Of a stretch of 64,000 bases of DNA, positions 46,538 through 60,218 are shown one piece after another (positions within the stretch are counted from its first letter, which is position 1; each line of letters begins with the position of its first letter). The position numbers and the translations under genes were made by a program. Under the pieces are notes generated by a model. That model saw nothing but the letters and a program-made list of their open reading frames with translations. It was not told where the DNA came from and made no database searches. The stretch is from Aurantiochytrium sp. KH105 (lineage: Eukaryota; Sar; Bigyra; Thraustochytrida; Thraustochytriidae): the NCBI GenBank assembly GCA_003116975.1, contig BGKB01000026.1, positions 496,001 to 560,000 of the forward strand, given 5' to 3'.

Positions 46538-46923
46538 GGTGACCTCGCTGGTAGGCCTCGTGAGCGTGGCAAAGCTACTCTGCTTTGCTCACCTCGCACG
46601 CCCCACCCGCCTCGCCCGCAGACGCGCGCGCGGCGCGCTACCTGAGTTCTGGCGGTCTCCCCTGCAGCCAACGGGGCCACTGACGCATCGGTTGGTGTCC
46701 GTTGCCCTCGAGAGAACCTTTACGGCTCGCTCGAGTGCACCTTTACGGCTCGCTCGAGTGCAAACGGACAATAAGCACAAGCATTGCCGCCTGAGATGTC
46801 TTTCTTTGTCGTTTATCCGTGGGAGACTGTGCTTACCTAACGCCAATCAAGCCAAAGCCTAGAGAGATGTTTTGTCCCGATTTTTGCAAAGGTTGTTATT
46901 TGGATTGTCGAATAGCCCTGGCT
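46538..46923. other. Promoter region of the coiled-coil gene
   Basis: 386 bases between the coiled-coil start and the mobile-element relic, with a perfect tandem duplication (annotated separately). No gene. Confidence 0.6.
46717..46762. repeat. Perfect 23-bp tandem duplication
   Basis: Two adjacent identical 23-base copies beginning CCTTTACGGCTCGC. They lie about 180 bases upstream of the coiled-coil gene start. Confidence 0.95.
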
Positions 46924-46954
46924 AAATTTCGTTCGGTCTAACCGAACGAAATTT
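46924..46954. repeat. Palindrome with 14-bp arms and 3-base loop
   Basis: AAATTTCGTTCGGT, CTA, then ACCGAACGAAATTT. It shares the core ACCGAACGAAAT with the inverted repeats of the adjacent element. Confidence 0.95.
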
Positions 46955-46993
46955 TCGGCGAAATAGTTTCCCCGATCCGGCGGCAGGCTGGGT

Positions 46994-47012
46994 CAGTGAG
47001 ACCGAACGAAAT
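46994..47012 (+). repeat. Left 19-bp inverted repeat
   Basis: CAGTGAGACCGAACGAAAT, the exact reverse complement of 49227-49245. Confidence 0.9.
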
Positions 47013-47072
47013 CTCTGGCAAACACGCGAGGCATTGCATTAAATACTTCTATTCAATTTTAAATCTTGCCGA

Positions 47073-49031
47073 TTGGCCAGATCGTTCCCACGATGCCCCC
47101 GCACCCCTCTGCAAGTTTGCAGGCAAATTCTCCCGGTGGAAGGGTTGTTGTTCTTCTGCAAAGTTGGGTACCGTGAGGGCGAACTTAACCATGACCTAAC
47201 GACCGCGCTTCATCAAGCGCTACAGCGGCTACAGCGAGCAGAAAAGCTTGGCAGCGTCGCGAGTCACGCTCTGCGATCGTACCCCTGGCATGATCGCGTC
47301 CAATTTGTTTGCATAGCGGCCCGTTGCGCGAGTTTGAAGCTGGCAACTGCCTCGAGCGATGGCGAGGCCCATGTCGAGAGCTGGTCGAGACGCTGCAGCT
47401 CAACGTCAGCCCAAGCACGGAGGAGGAGGAGGAGGAGCGTGCACATGAGCTCGATGAGGGCGCTCGAGATGATATTGACTGGGATCATGCCGATCTGCAA
47501 GACGAGCAAGATGATTCTTTTGGAGAATCGATCAAGCTGACAGGACGCGGTTCCTGGAGCTTTGAGTCCTTTTCACGGCGTAACGCCGCGTATCACGGTG
47601 ACCTCGCGGGGGCACTACGCCCTCTTGACTCGGTTGATTTGAAATTTAATCCGTACGGAAGTTTGGCTCTCGAGAAGCTCAAACGGGAGGCAGATGTGGT
47701 CGTGAAGCGTCTCCGCGAGCAAGCGAACAAAAGTGATGACGATGAGGGCATGCAACCCGCCGAGATCTTTCACATGATCATGCCGCCAAACTTTATTAAC
47801 ATCTTCGAAACATGGCTCAATGAATGTGCAACGATTTATAACGAAAGGCTCGCTCGAGGAAAGCGATGCGGACAGTCTCGAAGAAACCATGCCGGAGTGC
47901 AACCAGTTGGAGAAATATGTGTTCGCTCTGAAAATTAAGACCGCGACAGTGCGGTCTTCGGAGACGGCTCTCGATGAGCGGGTTTCTCGACAAGGTCTGT
48001 TTCGAGAATGCGACGCGGGTGCACAGGACTTCAAAGATCTTGTGCCAAATGCATCCTATTGTGCACAATGTGCACACCATGCAGCTGTTTTGGATGCACC
48101 ATGCACATTTCTAGTGTACGCAGATACGGTCGATATCCGACAAATTGTGATCGTCAGATTTTCATCGTCACAGCGCCAGGCCTGGAGGCTCTACTTCTCA
48201 TCCCTCGCCAAAGAGTACCTTGGCTTCATTTACTCTGATGCTCAGGAGCCCGTTCCAGACATTGCCGAGGACTACAGCGAGCACCTCGGTTTTGCACAAG
48301 ACCATCACACCGTAGAGATATACCTGCAGCTCTGGCGCAAGTACAGTATCGACATCATTTCCAGTGGGACTCCACCGCCGGCCCGGAAACTTATCCCTAT
48401 CACAGGTTCTTTCTGGAACCACATGATGGGAGGAGTGGACACTGTGCGAAAGACGTTATCAGGTCGCGCGCGGCGGACTGCGCGTTTGACTCCAAATGCG
48501 ATCATGTTCTCAACATGGTTTGAATATGCGCTCTACAATTGCTTTCGTGCCTACCAGCTGACAGAAAATAGGGACTTTATACGCACGTGCAACTCTTGGG
48601 AGTCATGGATGCCGCGCAAGAAAGGTATCTCGTTTGAGAAATTCCTGGAGAAGCTACGCATCAGCTTAAACGAGCTGAAACCGGCGCTAAATGTGATGTT
48701 TAAAGGAACCAGAGCGGATGCGAACGAGCTCGAAGATCCGCCTGAAGAGGTTATGAATCCGAGAGCACCTGGATATCGAGCCAGGCGTCTCCCTGAGATT
48801 TTGTCAAACCGAGCACAGGACAAGCACATGCAATTGCTGCAAGATAAAGCTCGTGCGTGCACTATATGCTGCACTAAGTGCGAAAAGGGTCAAAGCCCTG
48901 ACGAGCACGCTAGACAAGCTCGTAGGACGCAAAAATGGTGCTTGGCATGTGACACCGCCATCTGCAAGCGCTGTTGGGCGCGCTTCCACGCCTCGGATGG
49001 TGCTGTCCAGGTAGCTCATGCGAATCTATGA
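47073..49031 (+). pseudogene. piggyBac-like transposase relic, frameshifted
   Basis: Three plus-strand frames carry successive pieces. From 47073 to about 47310 it reads LTTALHQALQRLQRAEKLGS. From about 47310 to 47870 there is an acidic segment with FHMIMPPNFINIFETWLNEC. From 47820 to 49031 the third piece carries ITGSFWNHMMGGVDTVRKTL, which resembles the piggyBac motif around the last catalytic Asp (YNKYMGGVD). It is followed by the helical NAIMFSTWFEYALYNCFRAY and a C-terminal Cys-rich region (CTICCTKCEKGQS, CLACDTAICKRCWARFH), as in the piggyBac cysteine-rich domain. At least two frame changes are needed. The stretch between the second piece and GGVD is shorter than the usual catalytic core, so an internal deletion is likely. 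Short inverted repeats flank the copy. Confidence 0.6.
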
Positions 49032-49226
49032 AGCTCCTATACCTTTTCGACTATCTTGGCTCGATATGTCACTCAGCAGCACCTCCTGGCATGCTCATTC
49101 GCTCATTTAAGCAATTGTGCTCTCATTTGGAGCCCGGCAAATCTTGATCACCCGAGCGCAACGCAATTTAAAATTTGGCTAGGCGAAACTCACCTAACAC
49201 AGTCTTAGTCATATTACTCCTAATTA

Positions 49227-49245
49227 ATTTCGTTCGGTCTCACTG
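49227..49245 (-). repeat. Right 19-bp inverted repeat
   Basis: ATTTCGTTCGGTCTCACTG, the exact reverse complement of 46994-47012. A TTAA overlaps its inner edge (49224-49227). Confidence 0.9.
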
Positions 49246-49506
49246 TATCGGTCTATTCTGGCCAAATAGGCCGCTTCTCCGCCGCCTTCCCCCAAATCTA
49301 GTTTTCCCTACCCCTTGACCAAAACTGGTTCCCAAGCCTTTAAAATTTGGCACAGCAATCTACGGGCAGAGATCCTTCCCTGTGCTTAATTTCAAGGCGC
49401 GCGAGTTAATTTTGAGCGCGCTGGAAGAGATCAGGCAAATGAAATTTCGTTCGGTTTTTCGTTCGGTTTCATGTGGCTAGCCAGGGATAGTATTCATGGC
49501 TAGTTT

Positions 49507-52735: not shown

Positions 52736-55700
52736 ATGATCCGAAGAAGGCGTCAGACTCCGGCTGCGAGCCCGGCGTGGCGAACGAGGGCCCTCGGGGC
52801 GCTGGTGGCGCTGGCGCTCGCTGTCTGCAGCCTCTCCGTCGTCTCGACGACTGCGTCTGCAGGCAAGCACGAGTCACGCCCGCTCCGTGCCAAGGTTCTC
52901 TTTGAAGACGAGGTCGTGTGCAATTCCGAGGCGATTAGAACTGCCAATTCGGACTATCTTCTTCGACTTCTCGAAGAGCTCACCAACACAACATACTTTA
53001 GACTTTTTCGTGTCCAGCTCGACGGGGAGTGCCCACTTGATGCTGACCAAGCACAGGGGGACGAAGCGAAAAAACCCGAGGAACCAAGCTGCGGCTTTGG
53101 GGACGACGAGGATGATGACCATGGAGCAGGGGAAGAGGCCCCAGAGCCCCTTTGCAACTTGAAGCCTAGCGACGAAAGCCTCTCCAATCCATTCTTTGGC
53201 GGCGGAGGTGGCGGCGGATTTGGTGCCCCTGGATTTGGAAACCCCGTGGATAAGACTCTCTCAAAGCATGAAGACAGCGTCGTGAGTCAGGCCGAAGAGG
53301 ATTGCGACGACGAGTCGCTGCCAGCGTTTTGGACCAATCTCTGCGCCGAACTTCCCTTTAACGATTCTACCATGGAGTACGTGAACCTCCAGCTCAATCC
53401 AGAACAGTTCACAGGGTACAATGGAAGCAAGGTCTGGGACGCCATTTACGGTGAAAACTGCTTTGAAATCGAAGAGATTGACATGTGCTACGAGGAACGA
53501 TTCTTGTACAGGATGCTGTCAGGTTTACACTCGAGCATTAATCTGCACATTTCCGAGCACTACAAGCCGCCCGTGCCCGGTAAGCGAGATCGATGGGAAC
53601 GAGACCTCGTGCGTTTTCACCGCCAATTTGAGGGTCACCCCGAACGATTCAAAAACCTTGAATTCGCCTTTGTTGTCCTTTTGCGCGCCGTGCGGCGCGC
53701 AACGCCGACCTTGCGTGAGTTTAACTTTGCAACGGGGGAATCACGGGAAGATCAGCGCACGAACAAGCTCGTGTCTCTTTTTCTCGACTCGTTCGTCCTG
53801 CGTTCCTGCCAGACAGTCTTTGAAGCCTTTGACGAGAGCCTCCTCTTTGTGAACGAGAATGGTCCCCAGGTGTCTACCATGGCCAATCTGAAGCGACGCT
53901 TCAAAGACATCTTTCACAACATTAGCAACATATTTAATTGCATTCGATGCCAGCGATGCAGACTTCACGGCAAGCTGCAGCTCTTGGGCATTGGCACGGC
54001 AATGAAGATGCTTTTGCTACCGGAGCATCTCATCAAAGAGAACCTTTCGCGCGAGGAGGTAGTCGCTCTTTTCAACACGATGGCCAAGTTCTCGGAAGCC
54101 ATTGAGATTCACCAAAACATGAAGGACGCCATGCTCGCCAGCAAGGCGAGCGACGCGACGTCTGCGCCTGCGATTGCTCCTTCAATGGGCGCGGGACCAA
54201 TTTCAATGTCCATCTCCAATAAAGAGAGCCTGCAGCTGCTTCAGGATCGGGCCCTTGCCATTGTGTCGGGGGCTGTTCGCGAGGGCGAGCTCGACGAGGA
54301 CATGGAGGACGCACTTGTCGATGCCTTGCTGGATGGCGACGAGGAGCTCATGATCCTTGCCAAACACTTTGCCCTCGAGAACCACGAGACGTCGTTTATT
54401 CGCCACGCCGTTCGACGGCTCGGCCAAGTTGACGTGCAAGGGCCTACGAAACCTGATGCAGTCGTCATTGGCGCAGGACTTTCTGGGCTGACTGCGGCGC
54501 TTTCCATTTTGGATCGCGGTGGCTCGGTCGTTCTCATCGACAAAGAGGGCGGCCCGGGTGGAAACTCGGCCAAGGCATCGAGCGGCATCAATGGCATCGA
54601 CGAGACGAGTCTGACCAAGCTGAACGACTCGATCGCGCAGTTCAAGGAGGATATGGTGATTGGTAGTGGCCGGCCATCCTTTGCGACCAATCCTCTTGTC
54701 GATGTGCTGACAAAGGGCAGTGCTGACGCTCTCGCTTGGCTTCGCTCCCGCGTGGGCCTCGCCTTGGATGAGGTCGGCCAACTTGGCGGACACTCGCGAC
54801 CGCGAACGTGGCGGCCATCCACTGGTCTTGCCGGCTCTGAGCTCATCGTTGCTGTTAATCGTGCAGTGAAGTCGTACGAGGAGTCTGGCAAGTTGGAATT
54901 TCGTCGTAAGACGCAGGTGACTGAAATTCTCGTCAATGATGCCGAGGACGACGTTGCGCTGCGAGGTGTGCGCTGTAAGAACCTCGAGAGCGGGGACACT
55001 TTTGATCTGGACGCAAGCGCTGTGATCATCGCCACTGGCGGTTATGGCTTTCATCGTGGCTCTGAAGACTCGTTTTTGCTGCGACATCGACCTGACCTTG
55101 CAAGGTTCGGTACGACGAACGGCAAGTTCGCTACCGGCGATGGCATCTTGCTTGCGCAGGCCGTTGGCGCCGACACAGTTGATATCGATCAGGTGCAAGT
55201 TCACCCAACGGCCTTTGTTGACCCGAAGGACCGATCGAGTCCGGTGAAGACTCTCGCGGCGGAGCTCTTGCGTGGCGTTGGTGCTGTCATGCTCGACGCC
55301 TCGGGGCGGCGGTTCGTGAACGAGCTTGGAACGCGCAAATATGTCTCGGAGCACATGATTGCGCACGATCCGAGCGCCGATGGCCAACCTGAGTTCCTCA
55401 TGGTCCTCAGCGCGTCAGTTGCTGATCGTGCACCCAAGCATATTCCCATGTACATGCGCAAGGGGCTCATGTGGAAGGTCGACTCTGTCGAGGCTCTTGC
55501 AGAGACGCTTGGAGCAGAGGTGGCCACTGTGCGGCAGACCCTTGAGGATTTTGACCGCACTTGCACCGATATGAATGCCTATCCGGATCCCTTTAACCGG
55601 ACCGTGTGTCCAGACACGCCCTTGGCCACGGACGCACCCTTTTATGTGGGTTACATTACACCAGCTGTGCACTACTCCATGGGAGGCTTGCGTATTGACT

Positions 55701-56176
55701 CGCAAGGCCGTACCGTCAATAACGTAGGCGTGCCCACGGCGGGCGGAAGGCTTTATGCGGTTGGTGAAGTTGTCGGGGGTATCCATGGCAAGAATCGTCT
55801 TGGTGGAAACGCTCTTACCGAGTGCGCCGTCTTTGGCCTGCACGTTGGAGCGCACGTTCCTATTCAGGAGCGCACTAAGCCGCAAGTGACGAGTGGACGC
55901 CGTGACGAGACCAGATCGATTTCTTCATCCTCAAAAACGTCTCTCAAGTCTATCCCCATGGATGAACTCAAGCAGCACAACACGCCAGAGGACTGTTGGG
56001 TCGCCATCGACGGCAAAGTATACGACCTCACGCTCTATGCGGAGGACCATCCTGGCGGCAGAGAGGCGATTACAAGCCTCGCAGGCACCGATGGTACCAA
56101 GACCTTTATGGATGTACATACACCGTCGCTTCTGGAGGACTTGGATCCGATTGGCGTCTTTGCAAGTGAGTCATAG
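52736..56176 (+). CDS. ERO1-fumarate reductase-cytochrome b5 fusion flavoprotein
   Basis: 1146 residues in one open frame from the ATG at 52736. Residues 1-42 form a signal peptide (RRRR, then ALGALVALALAVCSLSVVS). Residues 60-465 are ERO1, the FAD sulfhydryl oxidase that reoxidises PDI: EYVNLQLNPEQFTGYNG, ENCF (C242), FLYRMLSGLHSSINLHIS and the active-site C402-x2-C405-x2-C408 in NCIRCQRCRLHGKLQ. After a helical linker (466-570) comes a soluble fumarate reductase of Osm1/Frd1 type (571-1045): FAD motif VVIGAGLSGLTAAL, GGNSAKASSGING, H686, VQVHPTA (H823), ELLRGVGA (R846) and KNRLGGNALTEC (R1021). All residues expected for hydride and proton transfer are present. Residues 1070-1142 are cytochrome b5 with haem ligands in HPGG (H1105) and DVHTPSLLEDL (H1128). 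No transmembrane helix follows the signal peptide and no KDEL-like end is seen. In yeast, Osm1 passes Ero1 electrons to fumarate; the fusion implies the same coupling. Its start is the first ATG; the upstream TTG is unlikely. Confidence 0.93.
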   Translation: MIRRRRQTPAASPAWRTRALGALVALALAVCSLSVVSTTASAGKHESRPLRAKVLFEDEVVCNSEAIRTANSDYLLRLLEELTNTTYFRLFRVQLDGECPLDADQAQGDEAKKPEEPSCGFGDDEDDDHGAGEEAPEPLCNLKPSDESLSNPFFGGGGGGGFGAPGFGNPVDKTLSKHEDSVVSQAEEDCDDESLPAFWTNLCAELPFNDSTMEYVNLQLNPEQFTGYNGSKVWDAIYGENCFEIEEIDMCYEERFLYRMLSGLHSSINLHISEHYKPPVPGKRDRWERDLVRFHRQFEGHPERFKNLEFAFVVLLRAVRRATPTLREFNFATGESREDQRTNKLVSLFLDSFVLRSCQTVFEAFDESLLFVNENGPQVSTMANLKRRFKDIFHNISNIFNCIRCQRCRLHGKLQLLGIGTAMKMLLLPEHLIKENLSREEVVALFNTMAKFSEAIEIHQNMKDAMLASKASDATSAPAIAPSMGAGPISMSISNKESLQLLQDRALAIVSGAVREGELDEDMEDALVDALLDGDEELMILAKHFALENHETSFIRHAVRRLGQVDVQGPTKPDAVVIGAGLSGLTAALSILDRGGSVVLIDKEGGPGGNSAKASSGINGIDETSLTKLNDSIAQFKEDMVIGSGRPSFATNPLVDVLTKGSADALAWLRSRVGLALDEVGQLGGHSRPRTWRPSTGLAGSELIVAVNRAVKSYEESGKLEFRRKTQVTEILVNDAEDDVALRGVRCKNLESGDTFDLDASAVIIATGGYGFHRGSEDSFLLRHRPDLARFGTTNGKFATGDGILLAQAVGADTVDIDQVQVHPTAFVDPKDRSSPVKTLAAELLRGVGAVMLDASGRRFVNELGTRKYVSEHMIAHDPSADGQPEFLMVLSASVADRAPKHIPMYMRKGLMWKVDSVEALAETLGAEVATVRQTLEDFDRTCTDMNAYPDPFNRTVCPDTPLATDAPFYVGYITPAVHYSMGGLRIDSQGRTVNNVGVPTAGGRLYAVGEVVGGIHGKNRLGGNALTECAVFGLHVGAHVPIQERTKPQVTSGRRDETRSISSSSKTSLKSIPMDELKQHNTPEDCWVAIDGKVYDLTLYAEDHPGGREAITSLAGTDGTKTFMDVHTPSLLEDLDPIGVFASES

Positions 56177-56507: not shown

Positions 56508-59500
56508 CTAAAGTGTGTCACTAAATGAGCCACCTACTCGGGGGCGCTTGGGACTCCCTTCGAGATCCGTCTTGGATGGACGTTTATCTCCCAGAGTTTT
56601 TTCACTATGCCCAGAGCCAAGATCGCGCCGCGGGGCGCTTTCCTTGTTGGCCCTTGGGGAAGACGAAGATGAGTCGTCGTCGCTGTCGTTTTCATTTTCG
56701 CCATTATCCTCATCCTCGGAAGAGTCAGAGTCAGAGTCAGAATCGTCGCCAAATTCAGAATCGCAGTCCTCGTTTGCGCCCCGGAAGAGGAAACGATACG
56801 AGTAATCGTCGCTTTGCCGATAATGGCAGCCCTTGAGCTCAGGAGCCTTGTTGCTCTTATCTTCAGGCTCTTCGCCATCACTGGTCTTGGCTTCGCGGTC
56901 AGCCTCATCATCATCACCGTTGTCGTCGTCGTCATCATCACCGTCGTTTTCCGGGACGCCGGGAATGTCCCAATGGAGTTCTTTGGCAAGAGCCGTAACA
57001 ACTGCATCACAGTTGCCCAACAGCTCTGCATCAAATTCGTGGGGCTGCGCAACGACCTCACGGTTGATGAGAATCTGTGGAATATCCTCATCGACCATTT
57101 CGATGATGCGAGAGACGGGTGCGACCTTGAGACTCGTCCCGAGAACGAGGACAAGATCACAGAGACGCACGTCCTCCTCGATACAATCAAAAAATTCCGA
57201 TGGCAGGGACTCGCCAAAAAACACAATGTCGGGCTTCATAATACCCTTGTCGAACATCTCATCCACAAAGGGAAGTTCGTCGAGGAAGGCGTCGTCCGCA
57301 TCATCGTGCCGAGTTGCGGTCTCTTTAGATCCATCAGCAGGCGCCTTTTCTTCCTGCTGCGGTGGACCATCAGTGTGCTGCGTCTCCTCCTCGTGGGCGT
57401 CCGTACTCGCGTGCGCACTTAGCGGGAGAGGCTCCGACGTCGCAAACGACGAGCTGGACGAGGTTGAGGCAAAGGAACCGTACGTCCCAGGTCCAGATGC
57501 GCCTTCAACGGGTCCATCGCCGCGCGGGCGCACCATGTTCGTTGTCGTAGTGCCTGCACCAGTGGTAGCCGTGTCAAGGCCCGGCGCGGCGTGAAGCGGC
57601 ATGGGATCGAGACCCGTTCCCTTTGGGTCCTCGTCCTGCGCGCCATGCGCTGCGTATAGGGCTTGTACGTCTGAGGGAAGAAGACCGCTCGTCGTGTTGT
57701 TGGAGGAGTCCCCTGAAGTGGCGGCATCGCCAGCGTTGCTGGGCTGTGCTGACGATGCAGCGTCTGCAAACACACTACGGTGCGATGCAGCGTTGTGAGC
57801 ACGAGGCGTAGTCATGGAGCTGAGACTGTTGGACCGGCTCAGTTGTGAGAGCGTGGGGCTCGGGGGGACCATGGGGTCGCTATCGGATGCGAGGCTATTC
57901 GTCCGCACTCCGGGACGTTTGTGCATGGAAGACTTGTTATTGTTGTTGTTGTTGCTGTTGCTGCTGCTATTGCTGCCGAACATTTTTTTGGTCGATGAGG
58001 CAAATGGCGAATCAGGCTCGATATTATGCGCAGCATGAGCTGGAGAAAGGTTCGAACGGGGCTGAGGAGACCGAGCAACGGCGTTCGCACCTTGCTTGGC
58101 AACAACTCCACCGTCAGCAGCCAAATCGAGCGCAGAAGTAGTCTTTGCCTGCGGCGTCCCGAGCGCAGTTTGAGACATTTTGCTACCCGCAGCAGCATTC
58201 GTTGTCGCCATCGTCGTATGAGTAGTAGATGAAGATAACGAGGACGAGGACGAGGACGACGAAGAAGAAGCACCTGCCGTGGAAACGGGAGCGACATGAG
58301 CTCCGCGCGCGTCTGCGAGCTGACTGTTCTTGTCAGTGTCCTGCTGCTGAGAGGAGACCGCCGAGGTAGGCCCGGCCAACGAAACGGTGTTACTAGTACC
58401 GAGTCCAGCGGAAGCAGCCAGAGGGGGCGTTGTGCGCGAAAGGGGTCCGCCCATGAGCGTTGTGCGCGCCGCAGCAATGGCGGGAGACCCACGGAGCGGC
58501 GTGCTTGTCGCGCCTGCATCAGAGTCGAGATCGCTCTCGCTCGAGATGGAATTTGAGCGAGTGCCGGCAAATCGAAATGCGCTCATGCTGGGATCACGCA
58601 TCACAACTTCCTCCATGAGCGAAGAGGGAGGATTTTCCGCGCAGCGAGGGCAAACTGGCGCGCGGCGGTTCATGATGTCATCCTTGATCCGGTCACCCTC
58701 GCATCGGAATTTGCAGCGGGTGCACGTGGCTGTGGCAAAGGAACCATGACACTGAAGCACGCGCTCGATGCCAGCGACGCATTCGAGCGTGTCGATGTTC
58801 TGCGTGTAGTTACGGTGAAGATGGCCGTGGGCCTCGAGACGTTTGATAAAGTGGTGCGTCGGCGCGGGCTCGTGCGTGCCCGGCCAGAGTTTGCGAGCGA
58901 AATCGTAAAAGGGCTTTGTGTTTCGGCGAAAGTAATGAATGGAAAACAGATCTTGTGGGTCCTTGAGTTTGTATCCGTCCAGCATGGAGTACACGCCGTG
59001 GCTGGAGCGAAAGTCTGGGATGCCGCAGCTCGTGGAGATGCCTGCGCCCGTGAGGACGAGAATGCGGCGCGCACCCTTGATCAGGGACGCCACTTGTGCC
59101 AGGCTCTGGATCTTCACGCGCCTCTTCCTGAACTGCTGCGCGCGGGACTGCACCACCATGACGAGCTTGGCGAAGGCCTGGGGCGTCATGTCCTCGACGA
59201 GTCTGCGCTTCCGTGGGCTCTCCTCCAGTTTCTGCACGAGCGGGATCCCCGGAAACAGCCGCAGCAGCAGCGGCACGCGCGCGTGCACGGGGACGGCTGC
59301 CGGCGAGATCTCCTCCACGTAGCTGTCCCCGTCGCTGTCCTCCTCCTCCTCCTCCTGCTGCTGCTGCTGCTGCTGCTGCCCAGCCGCTCGCGGGGCCTCC
59401 TGCTGCTGCCCGTCATGCTGCTGCTGCTGCTGCTGCTGCTCGCCGGCGGCGCCTTGGCCGCTGCTATTCCCAGCGTGGGCGTCACTGGCGCCGTCGTCGA

Positions 59501-59720
59501 TGGCGCCGTCGTTGGCGCCGTCGTTGGCCGCCATGAGCGGCGCCTCCATGGCGTGCGTCGAGGACTCCTCGCGCGGCGCGGGCGCGGGCTGCGCGGGGCC
59601 GGCGGCGGGCGCGTGCGCGGGCGCGTGCGCGGGCGCGTGCGCGGACGCGGCGCGCGGCGGCGTCGGGGCGGCCGGCGTGGGCGTGGGCGTCGGATGCGCG
59701 GCGGGCGCCTGCGCCTCCAT
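56508..59720 (-). CDS. SIRT1-class sirtuin deacetylase with large insertion
   Basis: 1070 residues from the ATG at 59720 (MEAQAPAAHPTPTP); the frame is open to 60173 but that part is GC-biased. The N-terminus is Ala/Pro-rich with two polyQ runs (about 95-101 and 115-122). The catalytic core starts near 215: ARRILVLTGAGISTSCGIPD (NAD binding), NYTQNIDTLECVAGI, catalytic H325 in QCHGSF, and zinc cysteines C333, C336, C357 and C360. The core resumes at about residue 829 with KPDIVFFGESLPSEFF, VLVLGTSLKVAPVSRI and IPQILINREVVAQPHEFDAEL followed by LGNCD, very close to SIRT1/Sir2. Between C360 and KPDIVFF there are about 470 residues, where SIRT1 has about 25: an in-frame Ser/Thr/Asn-rich low-complexity insertion of roughly 440. 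The C-terminus is strongly acidic. Known role: NAD-dependent protein deacetylase, usually nuclear. An unspliced intron is an alternative for the insertion, but it has no stop codon over 1.3 kb. Confidence 0.88.
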   Translation of the reverse strand: MEAQAPAAHPTPTPTPAAPTPPRAASAHAPAHAPAHAPAAGPAQPAPAPREESSTHAMEAPLMAANDGANDGAIDDGASDAHAGNSSGQGAAGEQQQQQQQHDGQQQEAPRAAGQQQQQQQQEEEEEDSDGDSYVEEISPAAVPVHARVPLLLRLFPGIPLVQKLEESPRKRRLVEDMTPQAFAKLVMVVQSRAQQFRKRRVKIQSLAQVASLIKGARRILVLTGAGISTSCGIPDFRSSHGVYSMLDGYKLKDPQDLFSIHYFRRNTKPFYDFARKLWPGTHEPAPTHHFIKRLEAHGHLHRNYTQNIDTLECVAGIERVLQCHGSFATATCTRCKFRCEGDRIKDDIMNRRAPVCPRCAENPPSSLMEEVVMRDPSMSAFRFAGTRSNSISSESDLDSDAGATSTPLRGSPAIAAARTTLMGGPLSRTTPPLAASAGLGTSNTVSLAGPTSAVSSQQQDTDKNSQLADARGAHVAPVSTAGASSSSSSSSSSLSSSTTHTTMATTNAAAGSKMSQTALGTPQAKTTSALDLAADGGVVAKQGANAVARSPQPRSNLSPAHAAHNIEPDSPFASSTKKMFGSNSSSNSNNNNNNKSSMHKRPGVRTNSLASDSDPMVPPSPTLSQLSRSNSLSSMTTPRAHNAASHRSVFADAASSAQPSNAGDAATSGDSSNNTTSGLLPSDVQALYAAHGAQDEDPKGTGLDPMPLHAAPGLDTATTGAGTTTTNMVRPRGDGPVEGASGPGTYGSFASTSSSSSFATSEPLPLSAHASTDAHEEETQHTDGPPQQEEKAPADGSKETATRHDDADDAFLDELPFVDEMFDKGIMKPDIVFFGESLPSEFFDCIEEDVRLCDLVLVLGTSLKVAPVSRIIEMVDEDIPQILINREVVAQPHEFDAELLGNCDAVVTALAKELHWDIPGVPENDGDDDDDDNGDDDEADREAKTSDGEEPEDKSNKAPELKGCHYRQSDDYSYRFLFRGANEDCDSEFGDDSDSDSDSSEDEDNGENENDSDDDSSSSSPRANKESAPRRDLGSGHSEKTLGDKRPSKTDLEGSPKRPRVGGSFSDTL

Positions 59721-60218
59721 GCGCGGCGGCCCTCGCGCGGCGGCGCGGGGCGCGGCGCGGCGGCGGCGCCGCGGGGAGCGCGCCGCGCGGGCGGCCCTCC
59801 TCGACCTGGCGCGCGCGCGGCGCGGAGCGGGGCGGCGGCGCGAGGGAGGGGAGGGAAAAATCACAGAATGAGCAGAGCCGCCGGGAGAGTGAGGAAGGGA
59901 GGAAGCAAGGGCTCTCCGCCAACGGAGACCGGTTAGGTTTGGGTCGGGTTTGGAGACCTCGGCCGGGCCCTCGAACTGCAAATTGGGGGCCCGCAGCTTT
60001 GGGCTGTGGAGCAAGCAAGGGGAGAAAAGGGGGGGTGGGTGATGGCGGCGCGAGGACGACGGATTGATTGTCTGGATGATCGATCGTCCACGAGGGAGGC
60101 AGGTCAGGCTGAGTCGGCCGAGTGGAGATTGTGCTGCGTGACTTTTTGTCTCTCTCTCTCGTCTCTCTCTCAAGCGCGCGCGCGCGCAATCGGTCTGCCA
60201 TGAGGCAAAGTGAATTTG
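59721..60218. other. Upstream region of the sirtuin, 3' flank of METTL9
   Basis: 498 bases between two minus-strand genes. GC-rich near the sirtuin start, then a CT/GC dinucleotide stretch at 60150-60185. No gene. Confidence 0.6.

Follow-up and report, generated by a model that had tools for sequence, protein, structure and literature searches.

Known relatives and the domains of the fusion

The closest described system is a pair of yeast proteins, Ero1 and the fumarate reductase Osm1, which oxidised thiols under anaerobic-like conditions when fumarate was supplied (Kim et al. 2018, PMC6242907, cited here and below from the available part of its text). We describe here a reading frame of Aurantiochytrium sp. 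KH105 that joins the same two enzyme families and for which we propose the same reaction from thiols to fumarate. The yeast enzymes are two proteins with a weak mutual affinity (dissociation constant about 150-200 uM), and Osm1 is described without a haem domain (PMC6242907), whereas the Aurantiochytrium frame encodes one chain that also carries a cytochrome b5. It lies on contig BGKB01000026.1 in a stretch of 64,000 nucleotides (the window), and all coordinates below are window positions unless a contig or locus is named.

Two other known systems resemble parts of this arrangement. QSOX, a thioredoxin-Erv fusion, is a natural protein that likewise shortens a disulfide relay in one chain; it fuses the thiol-accepting side and uses another oxidase family, whereas the ERO1 fusion adds the terminal electron acceptor. 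The Shewanella flavocytochrome c3 is periplasmic and has N-terminal c-type haems. Like our frame it holds a haem domain and the same reductase fold in one chain (1qo8, 1qjd; PMC6242907), and it has no ERO1. A natural fusion of ERO1 with a reductase was not found in the literature, as judged from titles and the openings of abstracts and with eukaryotic sequence collections outside the scope, which is consistent with the earlier note on this DNA, whose author knew of none.

The frame runs uninterrupted from ATG to TAG and encodes 1146 amino acids (aa), with the following features.

52736 to 56176, plus strand: whole ERO1-fumarate reductase-cytochrome b5 frame, 1146 aa plus stop
52736 to 52864, plus strand: predicted signal peptide or signal anchor, residues 1-43, at a hydropathy peak, boundary set by eye
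52964 to 54106, plus strand: ERO1 domain, residues 77-457, from Pfam PF04137 and alignments to the human and yeast proteins
53030 to 53155, plus strand: region of C99, C119 and C140, from alignment, with C119/C140 a putative assignment
53939 to 53959, plus strand: CxxCxxC active site, C402-C405-C408, aligned to human C391/C394/C397
54131 to 54448, plus strand: linker between ERO1 and reductase, residues 466-571, very probably translated and under purifying selection
54455 to 55816, plus strand: fumarate reductase domain of the Osm1/flavocytochrome c type, residues 574-1027, from profiles, structure matches and catalytic residues
55958 to 56128, plus strand: cytochrome b5 domain, residues 1075-1131, from Pfam, with haem ligands H1105 and H1128

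The earlier note had claimed a single open frame with three domains, and the search of its translation against the Pfam profiles matched all three, each far above the curated cut-off. ERO1 covers residues 77-457 (E 6e-83, 279 bits versus a cut-off of 27, profile positions 4-352 of 354), FAD_binding_2 residues 574-1027 (E 5e-72, 244 bits versus 20.4) and Cyt-b5 residues 1075-1131 (E 1e-20, 74 bits versus 23.7). In NCBIfam the middle part is a flavocytochrome c (TIGR01813, 335 bits versus a cut-off of 285). The residues that had been named in these domains, i.e. C402, C405 and C408, H823, R846, R1021 and both haem histidines, are correct. The signal peptide that had been claimed agrees with the hydropathy profile, whose top 19-residue windows begin at residues 17-25, and with an RRRR n-region and an AxA-like site recognised by eye. 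We infer that the N terminus is a signal peptide or a signal anchor and that the protein would reside in the lumen of the endoplasmic reticulum (ER).

The solved structures matched by the first part are those of human and yeast ERO1; 223 residues align with human ERO1-alpha at 40% identity, and 242 with yeast Ero1 at 36%. The CxxCxxC motif is kept, C402, C405 and C408 aligning with human C391, C394 and C397. Five of the seven positions that we take to be the contacts of flavin adenine dinucleotide (FAD) in ERO1 (R187, T189, W200, S252, H255, R287 and R300 in human numbering) are also kept, namely T226, W234, S262, H265 and R304. The cysteines of the N-terminal part stand at residues 31, 62, 99, 119, 140, 190, 203, 242 and 251. 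C99 corresponds to human C85, though the alignment is weak there, and C203 aligns with a yeast cysteine. C119 and C140 are spaced as CX20C with an acidic loop between them.

We searched the genome (76 Mb, 367 contigs) for further members of the ERO1 family. All four candidates were scored and two matched, both within copies of the fusion; the search reads exons singly, so a gene split into very short exons could escape it. None of the 14 prokaryote genomes used as controls matched. The genome thus yielded no ERO1 match outside the two copies of the fusion.

Among solved structures the reductase part matches 5glg, 'Fumarate reductase 2', best (E 5.5e-80). The two share 39% identity across an alignment of 448 residues, and the residues of 5glg agree with the numbering of Osm1. 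All six catalytic residues of Osm1 (H281, E301, R304, R326, H435 and R477) are kept, as H823, E843, R846, R867, H979 and R1021. Osm1 has a second pocket for free flavin, which we define by the nine residues listed in the available text of PMC6242907. Only four of these nine are kept in the fusion; V837, T839, H902 and M905 depart from Osm1, and P162 is opposite a gap. We treat this pocket as a trait of Osm1 that does not define the reductase family. Both haem histidines of the b5 domain are kept, i.e. H1105, which stands in an HPGG motif, and H1128.

Of the 80 top-ranking prokaryote loci, 41 were placed in a tree. In it the reductase part clusters with the 5glg chain and two other soluble reductases of the same genome (support 100/100), apart from the 41 bacterial sequences, with long branches meeting at this grouping. 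The tree does not support the view that the reductase part came recently from bacteria. A covalently bound flavin of the ApbE type was also considered for the fusion, and the motif D-x-x-[S/T]-G-A-[S/T], taken from the available part of PMC12052999, was not found in its sequence.

Second copy, linker and relatives in the genome

The matches of our family searches are mostly, though not always, paired, and the genome appears to hold two haplotypes. The counterpart of our locus is on contig C154, with 94.4% identity over 12.6 kb that include both neighbouring genes. It carries a second copy of the fusion (C154:164392-167832), again of 1146 aa, with 15 amino-acid differences and no change of length. 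This copy is probably the other haplotype, and both copies stem from one assembly.

The two frames differ at 103 of 3441 bases, and 90 of the 103 differences are at third codon positions. The ratio of nonsynonymous to synonymous divergence (dN/dS) between the copies is 0.054 for the whole frame, 0.050 for the ERO1 part, 0.029 for the reductase part and 0.196 for the b5 end. Residues 1-43 do not differ in any amino acid, and residues 98-190 are looser, with dN/dS 0.257. The domain E-values together with this coding type of divergence indicate that the fusion is not a matter of chance. Minus-strand frames of up to 394 aa also run through the region, and an antisense gene as the real feature was rejected from the codon positions, since the differences follow those of the plus frame.

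The linker of 106 aa (residues 466-571) has dN/dS 0.079, from three nonsynonymous and 11 synonymous differences, and 12 of these 14 differences are at third positions. Translation through the linker, in the reading frame of the domains on either side, is thus very probable.

We found three forms of the soluble reductase family in the genome, two copies each, in a search that scored 15 of 112 candidates, so that further members are possible. The fusion is the first of them. The second is a stand-alone reductase-b5 protein of 643 aa from its first ATG (contigs C216 and C129), 35-36% identical to the fusion, in which FAD_binding_2 is followed by Cyt-b5. The six catalytic residues and the haem histidines are those of the fusion, from which it differs in having no ERO1 and no signal peptide by eye.

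The third form joins ApbE, fumarate reductase and an oxidoreductase of reduced nicotinamide adenine dinucleotide (NADH) in an open frame of 1226 residues (contigs C191 and C239). It is likewise a multi-domain soluble eukaryotic fumarate reductase with a putative donor module fused to it; it differs in that its donor looks NADH-dependent and that it has an ApbE domain and matches neither ERO1 nor Cyt-b5. A fusion of ApbE with fumarate reductase has been described for trypanosomatids (PMC12052999). The two copies here are L022:1248-4925 and L025:1766-5443, both on the minus strand. Pfam was run on the L022 copy, and a search of its reductase stretch (residues 455-965) for a relaxed flavinylation motif found none.

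The genome also encodes other possible makers of disulfides, namely a QSOX-like (thioredoxin-Erv), an ALR-like and a third Erv-like protein, and VKOR. A plus-strand frame of 684 residues (L027:1277-3328) has an Erv-like match at residues 438-487 only and no thioredoxin match, and judged from its sequence is an unusual relative of the sulfhydryl oxidases.

Proposed electron path and its alternatives

Our analysis suggests, with a probability of about 0.62, that the fusion is one protein of the secretory pathway that makes disulfides and discharges the electrons onto fumarate. Electrons from reduced partners of the PDI type would enter at cysteines in the N-terminal region of the ERO1 part, with C119/C140 as the probable pair, and would move on to C405-C408 and then to the ERO1 FAD. 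From this flavin the tethered b5 haem would take them over, most likely one electron at a time, and hand them to the reductase FAD, where fumarate, if it is supplied to the ER, would be reduced to succinate. Alternatively the haem could be bypassed by direct transfer from FAD to FAD, and O2 may still serve as acceptor when present. With the fusion being the only ERO1 found, the ER could then oxidise proteins when oxygen is scarce, and produce less hydrogen peroxide in doing so.

We place the haem in this path, which the earlier note had drawn without it, because of four points. The b5 haem is present in the chain, and the free-flavin pocket is kept at four of nine positions only, as expected if electrons arrive from within the chain. 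The direct step between the flavins is termed controversial, with more than 20 A between them in a docking model (PMC6242907). Yeast Ero1p was found to reduce cytochrome b5 in vitro without oxygen, as a review reports in its available part (PMC2672033). The link to the chemistry of yeast Ero1 and Osm1, which the earlier note had drawn, is supported both by the thiol oxidation reported for the yeast pair (PMC6242907) and by the kept catalytic residues.

Several points weigh against this reading. The main ones, as far as an ordinary ERO1 is concerned, are in the first part, and the earlier note does not mention them. Two of the FAD-contact arginines, R187 and R287 of human (R187 and R260 of yeast), are Q224 and Q297 here, and the binding or the potential of the FAD may therefore differ from those of known ERO1s. 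The outer shuttle pair of ERO1 is CX4C as a norm and CX5C in some plants, and neither pair is present in the list of N-terminal cysteines. The best candidates for the role of CX4C would then be C119/C140. The stand-alone reductase-b5 also departs from much of the free-flavin pocket, so the loss of the pocket may be tied to the b5 and not to ERO1. The fusion need not be the only source of disulfides, since QSOX-like, ALR-like and VKOR genes are also present. Thraustochytrids are usually cultured as aerobes. Finally, in yeast an Osm1 chimera that did not bind Ero1 still mediated anaerobic thiol oxidation (PMC6242907). As this chimera stayed active, tethering would not be strictly needed and contact would merely help.

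The same chimera, in showing that physical contact is dispensable for thiol oxidation with fumarate, bears on a different explanation, in which the ERO1 part uses O2 and the fusion just brings the reductase-b5 to the ER lumen. No electrons would pass directly, and the reductase would oxidise free flavin or some other luminal donor. The genome does hold a stand-alone reductase-b5 without a signal peptide by eye, a copy of which could have been targeted in this way, and the activity of ERO is described as strictly O2-dependent in the available text of PMC9516139. However, a signal peptide would by itself be enough for targeting, conservation extends to the linker, yeast is known to pair the two activities, and a reductase fed by free flavin fits poorly with a pocket kept at just four of nine positions. 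We regard co-targeting alone as rather unlikely.

It is improbable that the fusion is transcribed as one unit and then yields separate ERO1 and reductase-b5 proteins, through a protease or an internal transcript. The linker opens with a stretch rich in Ala, Ser and Pro that is possibly exposed, but the whole of it is under purifying selection, and a discarded spacer would be expected to drift more. Still less probable is an ERO1 part that has no canonical activity and serves a luminal fumarate reductase as a thiol sensor or docking module. Q224, Q297 and the missing CX4C pair would fit this, but the CxxCxxC motif, T226, W234, S262, H265 and R304 are all kept, the ERO1 part evolves at a dN/dS of only 0.05 and no other ERO1 was found in the genome. 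A false join of two genes, through a missed frame boundary or through mis-assembly, the latter set out by the earlier note as a case against its own claim, is contradicted by the data and very unlikely, with a negligible probability, because the same fusion stands on another contig in a frame of equal length despite gaps in both flanks (75 gap columns per 800 aligned in the 5' flank, 4 per 330 in the 3' flank) and because the linker is under selection, with its differences mostly at third positions.

Neighbouring features and meaning of the fusion

The gene adjoining the fusion encodes a sirtuin (56508-60173, minus strand). Its SIR2 match falls in two stretches, and a long low-complexity sequence rich in Ser and Asn was seen by eye between them. 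At 46915-49487 the window holds about 2.57 kb that are absent from the C154 copy. This segment has inverted ends (CCCTGGCTA/TAGCCAGGG) with ATAG on both sides, and it looks like the insertion of a DNA transposon. The frame of 403 aa inside it (47820-49031) has no Pfam match at E 0.01.

Elsewhere in the genome, genes resembling polyunsaturated fatty acid (PUFA) synthases are arranged head to head on contigs C72 and C155. Their TIGR02813 matches are all below the cut-off, and 11 of the 14 control genomes match too. On 20 kb of the mitochondrial contig C366 (L033, L034) there are 22 frames of at least 150 codons, six of which were left out as being largely N. In all 16 remaining frames TTA stands only ahead of the first Met or in the closing part, which in one frame of 184 codons means the last third. 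This is as expected if TTA behaves as a stop in these mitochondria, which we take to be a trait of NCBI table 23, the Thraustochytrium mitochondrial code. Such use of TTA agrees with a thraustochytrid (Labyrinthulomycetes, stramenopiles) as the source, to which the PUFA-synthase-like genes point weakly.

Each part of the fusion belongs to a known family; what is new is the architecture and its status as the only ERO1 found. Viral contigs were scanned for relatives of the fusion and none was confirmed there. Other thraustochytrids may well carry the same gene, and the databases may already hold it unremarked.

Tentatively, and against the odds, we speculate that the sole ERO1 of a thraustochytrid might be a self-contained, fumarate-respiring generator of disulfides in which the b5 haem wires the two flavins. 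Its altered FAD site and shuttle loop might then be tuned for transfer within the molecule and not for O2, which might permit oxidative folding that needs no oxygen and yields no peroxide, amid abundant and easily oxidised polyunsaturated lipids.

The fusion could also serve production hosts as a part for secreting disulfide proteins anaerobically, and a protein of fixed stoichiometry would allow the electron path to be measured directly. How eukaryotes form disulfides without oxygen is a long-standing question, and the answer from yeast depends on two proteins that interact weakly and on docking that sets the flavins more than 20 A apart (PMC6242907). A natural one-chain form with a haem, if it works as we propose, would be independent evolutionary evidence for cooperation of the Ero1-Osm1 type.

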